From: Balneolaceae bacterium
GTDB taxonomy: Bacteria; Bacteroidota; Rhodothermia; Balneolales; Balneolaceae
DNA length: 64,000 nt
NCBI GenBank assembly: GCA_020832285.1
Contig: JAFIFB010000024.1
Span: forward strand, 62,001 to 126,000
Reading direction: 5' to 3'
Below are positions 15,610-19,841 of this stretch, one piece after another (position 1 is the first letter of the stretch; each line of letters starts with the position of its first letter). The notes under the pieces are model-generated. The model did not search any database. It saw only the letters and a list, made by a program, of their open reading frames with translations, and was not told the DNA's origin. The translations under genes and the position numbers were made by a program.

Positions 15610-15961
15610 ATCTGCCTTCTACGGAACCTCAGACTAAAGTTCAGGTAATTCCTTAGACTAAAGTTCAGGTAATTCCTTAGACTTGCTGTTTTCTCGTTTC
15701 TTTTTAAAAAAGTTAAGACTATCATTCGTTTAAAAAAGAAAACATATTCGTACTTTCTGTGCGTCCATTCAAAAAAAATGGCTAAACTTATTTATTTCAC
15801 AAACTAATAGTTGACTGATTTTATTGCTATCTACATAAGTAAGAACTTTCAAAAAAAGCTAAAAAATTTATTCAATGTTTTGTCATACTTAGCGCCCCGT
15901 GCGTTAGCGATTCCAATTTATTGAATTAAACAGGTTATTTTAATTCAGATATTTAACCCTG
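15610..15961. other. Intergenic region with a short tandem repeat
   Basis: This 352-base gap starts with the tandem repeat at 15631-15683 and is otherwise AT-rich (15700-15960), with several A-runs. It probably holds the promoter of the outer-membrane protein gene at 15962, but no consensus was clear enough to mark. Confidence 0.4.
15631..15683. repeat. 24-base tandem repeat, two copies and a remnant
   Basis: The unit AGACTAAAGTTCAGGTAATT plus CCTT is present at 15631 and again at 15655, identical, with the first five bases of a third at 15679. It lies 22 bases after the gluconokinase stop. Confidence 0.85.
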
Positions 15962-19151: not shown

Positions 19152-19841
19152 CTATAAAACCAGGAGCTTTTCCCTCTCCATCCAATCCGGCAGAAAGTGG
19201 TCCATCAAACGGTAAAACCTTTTACTGTGCAGACGTTCCAGCAGATGAACCATTTCATGAACAACAATAAATTCCAGGCAAACGGGATCTTTTTTGGCAA
19301 GTTCCAGGTTAAGCCAGATACGCTTGTCACGGATATTGCAAGTACCTCATCGAGTTCTCATTCTCTTCACCCCGAATTCATTCACCGTTACACCCATTAC
19401 CGGTTCCCACTTTGAAATCAACAAGGGAATTTCACGCTTCAATTCAGCGCGATACCACTCTTGAAGCAGTTTTTTACGGTGATGGATTTTAGTTCCCGCT
19501 TTCACCCAAAGATCCAATGTATCATTGCCATTCAGAAACACCCGCTGGCCATTTTCGGAGTGAATAACCCTCAATTTCTTTTCTACTCCCCATACCGGGT
19601 GCTTTTCTCCGGTTATTAATTTATTTATTTCACATCTTTTTTGATGTTTGCCCCGATCAAGATGTTTTTTGATCCATGAAATTTTTTCGGTGGCAAAATC
19701 GATGACTTTAGCCGGTTTGGTTCGGTACGGGCATGAAATTGCCACTTTACCATCGGCCGGATACACACGCAGGTTAATATTTTTTATATCTTTCCGGGCA
19801 ACATCAATTGTGATGCCCGCAACAGTCAACCTGGATTTCAT
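19152..19841 (-). pseudogene. YgjP/M48-type metallopeptidase gene interrupted by an in-frame TGA
   Basis: The minus strand encodes a DUF45/YgjP-like metal-dependent hydrolase (about 229 codons). The first 164 codons (19841-19350) run from 'MKSRLTVAGITIDVARKD' to 'VKRMRTR'. Then a TGA at 19347-19349 stands where the family has the tryptophan of 'R-W-G-S-C'. After it the same frame continues without break: 'GTCNIRDKRIWLNLELA', then 'FIVVHEMVHLLERLHSKRFY' with the HExxH zinc site, and ends at TAG 19152. One base change (TGG to TGA) explains it. The product would lack the active site unless the TGA is read through. Either a recent nonsense mutation or a sequencing error is likely. Confidence 0.85.

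Follow-up and report, generated by a model that had tools for sequence, protein, structure and literature searches.

An in-frame TGA at a conserved tryptophan codon of a ygjP-like metallopeptidase gene in a Balneolaceae genome, probably a recent nonsense allele

The ygjP-like metallopeptidase gene described here, the only one found in its genome, carries an in-frame TGA at a tryptophan codon and was probably interrupted by a single recent nonsense change from that Trp codon to TGA. A nonsense allele is the simplest account of this stop in the window (the whole 64,000-nucleotide stretch of DNA that was analysed) and a consensus error is its main rival. With a nonsense allele, RF2 would stop translation after 164 residues, ahead of the zinc-binding HExxH, and given termination before this site the product is expected to be without its active site. 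Ordinary low-level leakage of UGA to tRNA-Trp would put back the original residue and could yield a little full-length protein, such that the loss may be incomplete. We infer that the base is real in the DNA rather than an error of the consensus, that function is lost and that leakage takes place.

The gene and its internal stop

Read on the minus strand, the gene starts with ATG at 19841, closes with TAG at 19154→19152 and contains 229 codons ahead of this final stop with no frameshift; codon 165 is TGA at 19349→19347 (Table 1). With the TGA read as Trp, the protein matches PF01863 over residues 21–223 with 184.5 bits, the curated cut-off of the family being 26 bits. The part before the stop (E = 1e-23, profile 2–142) and the 59 residues past it (profile 144–200) score 84.9 and 80.3 bits when searched separately, each above the cut-off, and both matches are far beyond chance. 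The two halves thus end and begin at profile positions 142 and 144, and the reading frame is indeed intact on both sides of the TGA, as an earlier note on this DNA had described it. That note also placed an intact HExxH beyond the stop, which is found as HEMVH, and set the stop at the Trp of an R-W-G-S-C motif. The Trp position stands, whereas the motif letters do not: the local motif is R-*-G-T-C, and the T of R-W-G-[ST]-C is also present in many near relatives.

Table 1. Features of the ygjP-like gene, in window coordinates.
Feature	Position	Strand	Remark
ygjP-like metallopeptidase gene (PF01863) with internal stop	19152..19841	minus	single frame; PF01863 E = 3.3e-54 when read through
codon 165, a TGA within the frame at the position of the conserved Trp	19347..19349	minus	TGG in all examined relatives covering the site
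open reading frame up to and including the TGA	19347..19841	minus	predicted product of 164 aa, without HExxH
59 codons past the stop, with HEMVH	19170..19346	minus	PF01863 match alone, E = 2.5e-22

Judged by its sequence, the gene is a member of PF01863, while the predicted 164-residue product, in which the zinc site encoded past the stop is missing, is not a complete member. Scanning of the 59 codons past the stop revealed no ATG, GTG or TTG as a restart ahead of the Met inside HEMVH, so a separate catalytic piece is not expected from the usual start codons; the rarer start codons ATC, CTG and ATT are present in this interval. A PF01863 search of the whole genome (5.33 Mb in 130 contigs, 99.08% complete) returned one match, the window gene, with one TGA inside. 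The protein matched no NCBIfam family at E 0.001 and no solved structure by sequence search at E 0.01, and the SprT-like family (PF10263) reached 24.3 bits, just below its cut-off of 25.6. A text search for YgjP returned papers with the name in none of the titles or abstracts available.

The stop site in related genomes

Each of the 25 genus loci that span the site has TGG at this codon. The genus set consists of 26 loci other than the window's own, paralogues included as some genomes give two, with one locus (L022) ending before the site. In the genome_contigs set, TGG is present in all 17 covering loci of 18 (L045 does not cover the site). Four of these 17 duplicate loci of the genus set, leaving 13 further loci that may include near-duplicates, and the nearest named loci of the set come from Balneolaceae MAGs, Rhodohalobacter, Gracilimonas and some others. 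No orthologue lacking the downstream part, a case that the earlier note had named as speaking against its reading, was found among the 25 covering genus loci. In the wider family, one genome (G076) has a partial PF01863 match restricted to profile 3–109, which may be truncated where its contig stops or may be genuinely short.

The nearest relative, the Balneolaceae MAG CSSed162cmB_94 (L026, identical to L028), has an intact ygjP copy with 92.4% protein identity to that of the window, and is 92.6% identical in DNA over 8.7 kb. This locus is syntenic with the window and shares the same neighbour genes, which we take to encode proteins like 6-phosphogluconate dehydrogenase and cysteine desulfurase. 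It is the only covering relative closer than 65% protein identity, the level of the next one. Use of L012/L029 as outgroup places the change to TGA on the window lineage. Across the loci compared, the premature stop is private to the window lineage, and the relatives examined are intact at the site.

Counting the window genome, a PF01863 match is present in 22 of 28 genomes of the genus (13 of the 18 of good quality) and in 60 of 92 genomes of the family, leaving 6 and 32 respectively without a match, some of which are incomplete genomes. Because 6 of the 28 genus genomes are without a family match, loss of the ygjP-like gene seems tolerable.

Stops inside PF01863 matches occur in 3 of 73 rows of the family, namely the window gene (one TGA), G046 (one TGA) and G078 (two TAG). 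Recurrence of the same TGA in G046 was considered and rejected, as the TGA of that genome lies elsewhere, at a non-Trp place, and the Trp codon is kept. The G046 copy (L098, G046:C3:709-3071) is a partial second family copy near a contig start. The match in G078 (L099, G078:C14:7341-9613) is likewise partial and, with its two in-frame TAG, keeps the Trp of the motif. By eye, these two TAG stand at places that are aromatic in relatives, mostly Trp.

Selection on either side of the stop

Comparison with the nearest relative (L028) shows 10 synonymous and 15 nonsynonymous codon differences in codons 1–164, and 8 synonymous and 1 nonsynonymous in codons 166–224. With L029 as outgroup, the single nonsynonymous change past the stop falls on the other (L028) lineage, and the changes derived on the window lineage in this part are three nucleotide changes, all synonymous, although few in number and polarised by an outgroup that is remote (65% protein identity, with saturated dS). 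Over the whole gene there are 17 amino-acid differences, of which 3 are derived in the window lineage (the stop included), 4 in the other lineage, and 10 are unpolarisable.

The NG86 estimate of dN/dS for the ygjP gene without its stop codon is 0.035/0.145, a ratio of about 0.24, compared with 0.036/0.220, 0.018/0.161 and 0.021/0.191 for three neighbour genes (ratios of 0.16 for the 6PGD gene and 0.11 for the other two). The ratio of ygjP, the highest of the four genes, is due to the codons ahead of the stop (0.043/0.109), with those past it giving 0.014/0.267. On these ratios, constraint on the pre-stop part is already mild on both lineages, and the post-stop part is tightly held, with no sign of decay as read from its substitutions. 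This lack of decay, read from three derived changes, suggests that the stop is either very recent or an error. As a side observation, the window lineage has 12 derived nucleotide changes, and 5 of them are near one another, perhaps by chance, in codons 164, 165 and 177–179 (19305–19352, minus strand).

The alternative of an error is that of a sequencing or consensus error, or a mixture of strains in the assembly, with the living cell having Trp at codon 165; a wrong base or a minority strain would look the same in the assembled sequence. This is unlikely, although it carries the greatest weight among the rivals: the post-stop part looks fully selected, a single codon is involved and the genome was assembled into 130 contigs, all of which would be in keeping with it, but the sampled DNA gives no hint that the consensus is poor in general, as judged from the extensions of 224 ORFs described below (seven viewed by eye), a test that is blind to frameshifts.

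Purifying selection past the stop is also expected of a functional readthrough product, and the three derived changes are few. Gene-specific programmed readthrough of the UGA, with Trp inserted and both a short and a long form produced, would agree with the selection that seems held past the stop. It is nonetheless improbable, given that the stop is present in no relative examined, including the one at 92.6% DNA identity, and that no stimulatory fold was found in the 60 bases past the stop, the predicted RNA folding no better than its shuffles (43 of 200 did equally well, z = −0.82). A little less probable again is that the TGA is fixed in the species and that readthrough by the normal tRNA-Trp gives a low dose of active enzyme, the stop being tolerated as a selected down-regulator.

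Decoding of UGA in the genome

The use of UGA was examined in 313,894 bases, comprising the window and 14 stretches of the same genome, from which ORFs of at least 120 aa with little or no overlap were called mechanically. The 224 ORFs end in TAA (115), TGA (81) or TAG (28). Their in-frame extensions of at least 30 codons were assessed with a codon model whose training ORFs came from this sample itself, a test that is blind to frameshifts, and were coding-like in 6 of 22 cases after TGA (the ygjP gene included), 9 of 28 after TAA and 2 of 5 after TAG. Coding-like extensions are no commoner past TGA than past TAA or TAG. Besides ygjP, 16 of the 224 ORFs have a coding-like extension, and none of the seven viewed was recognised as a similarly broken gene: by eye, the five after TAA or TAG looked like neighbouring genes in their own right or short stretches of unclear nature, and the two after TGA showed no recognisable protein continuation.

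The RF2 gene prfB is present (459.3 bits, cut-off 370). Its start (L076, G000:C110) contains AGGAGG followed by an in-frame CTT TGA C, after which the protein resumes in another frame. Many bacteria are known to have an early in-frame stop in prfB that must be passed by a programmed frameshift (PMC12421855); the available text of that source yielded no passage on family names or the slip site. Such a frameshift site would be expected solely in organisms that terminate at UGA, and it is a useful marker of UGA as a stop in this lineage.

The tRNA search of the genome gave 36 matches, named by ARAGORN, from an incomplete set in which 150 of 291 candidates were scored. No UCA anticodon was present among the 36. 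A tRNA-Ile with a GAT anticodon was also absent among them, which indicates that the assembly or the search lacks part of the tRNA genes; this one probably went missing together with an rRNA operon that did not assemble. The one tRNA-Trp found has a CCA anticodon, A9, G24 and a 5-bp anticodon stem (our numbering). Variants that read UGA have a UCA anticodon, a 4-bp anticodon stem, or A9C or G24A in tRNA-Trp, according to the available part of PMC13092985, and the tRNA-Trp of the window genome has none of the suppressor variants given there. It is identical over 74 bases to that of six congeners (G006, G010, G016, G017, G021 and G023), in which all eight ygjP loci carry TGG. A search for tRNA-Trp in the genome of the nearest relative (G011) gave no match.

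Reading of UGA as Trp, through general recoding or a suppressor tRNA-Trp, would account for a stop that coincides exactly with a Trp invariant across the examined loci, and the incomplete tRNA set, with its lack of tRNA-Ile (GAT), would allow for a missed tRNA. This explanation is very improbable and was rejected on stop usage, prfB and the incomplete set of tRNAs found: TGA closes 81 of the 224 sampled ORFs, the genome has a prfB in which AGGAGG precedes the CTT-TGA-C site, no anticodon UCA was found, and the tRNA-Trp (CCA) is without known suppressor features and the same as in six congeners with TGG. The earlier note's view that general recoding is unlikely is therefore borne out by TGG in relatives, UGA as a working stop and no UGA-reading tRNA among the 36 found. 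Of the three options it offered, a nonsense mutation and a sequencing error remain, and UGA read as Trp is unsupported.

Insertion of selenocysteine has the in-frame UGA in its favour and nothing further. In relatives the site holds Trp and neither Cys nor UGA, and the selB model gave 10 matches in the genome with none above the cut-off of 242.25 (best 104.1 bits). With Trp in relatives and all selB matches below the cut-off, this candidate was rejected as the least credible of all.

Relation to known systems

The window gene resembles the YgjP-like metallopeptidases of PF01863 in its match over residues 21–223, its HExxH and the position of the Trp-Gly motif, and differs from them in having one in-frame TGA at the Trp. 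Pseudogenes that arise by nonsense mutation are known in bacteria. A recent nonsense allele would share with these its single copy, patchy distribution, one private stop and an intact syntenic relative, but the window gene shows no further decay yet, being at the very start of the process or an error.

Reassignment of UGA to Trp is described for Mycoplasmatales and others in the available part of PMC13092985. The window gene is similar to the cases given there in having UGA at a Trp position, but the genome has RF2 and uses TGA as a common stop, and neither a UCA tRNA among the 36 found nor a 4-bp anticodon stem in its tRNA-Trp was seen. There is no case for a changed genetic code, and the finding is an ordinary one.

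As it stands the finding is of little importance, representing one more patchily distributed gene seen at about the time of its inactivation. It indicates that, when an in-frame TGA is met at a Trp position, the tRNA, RF2 and relatives should be checked before recoding is invoked. Were the stop fixed and the enzyme still made, the gene would offer a small natural test case of UGA leakage that restores Trp. Elsewhere in the window, positions 15627–15683 hold a short tandem repeat with a 24-base unit in 2.4 copies (96% matches).
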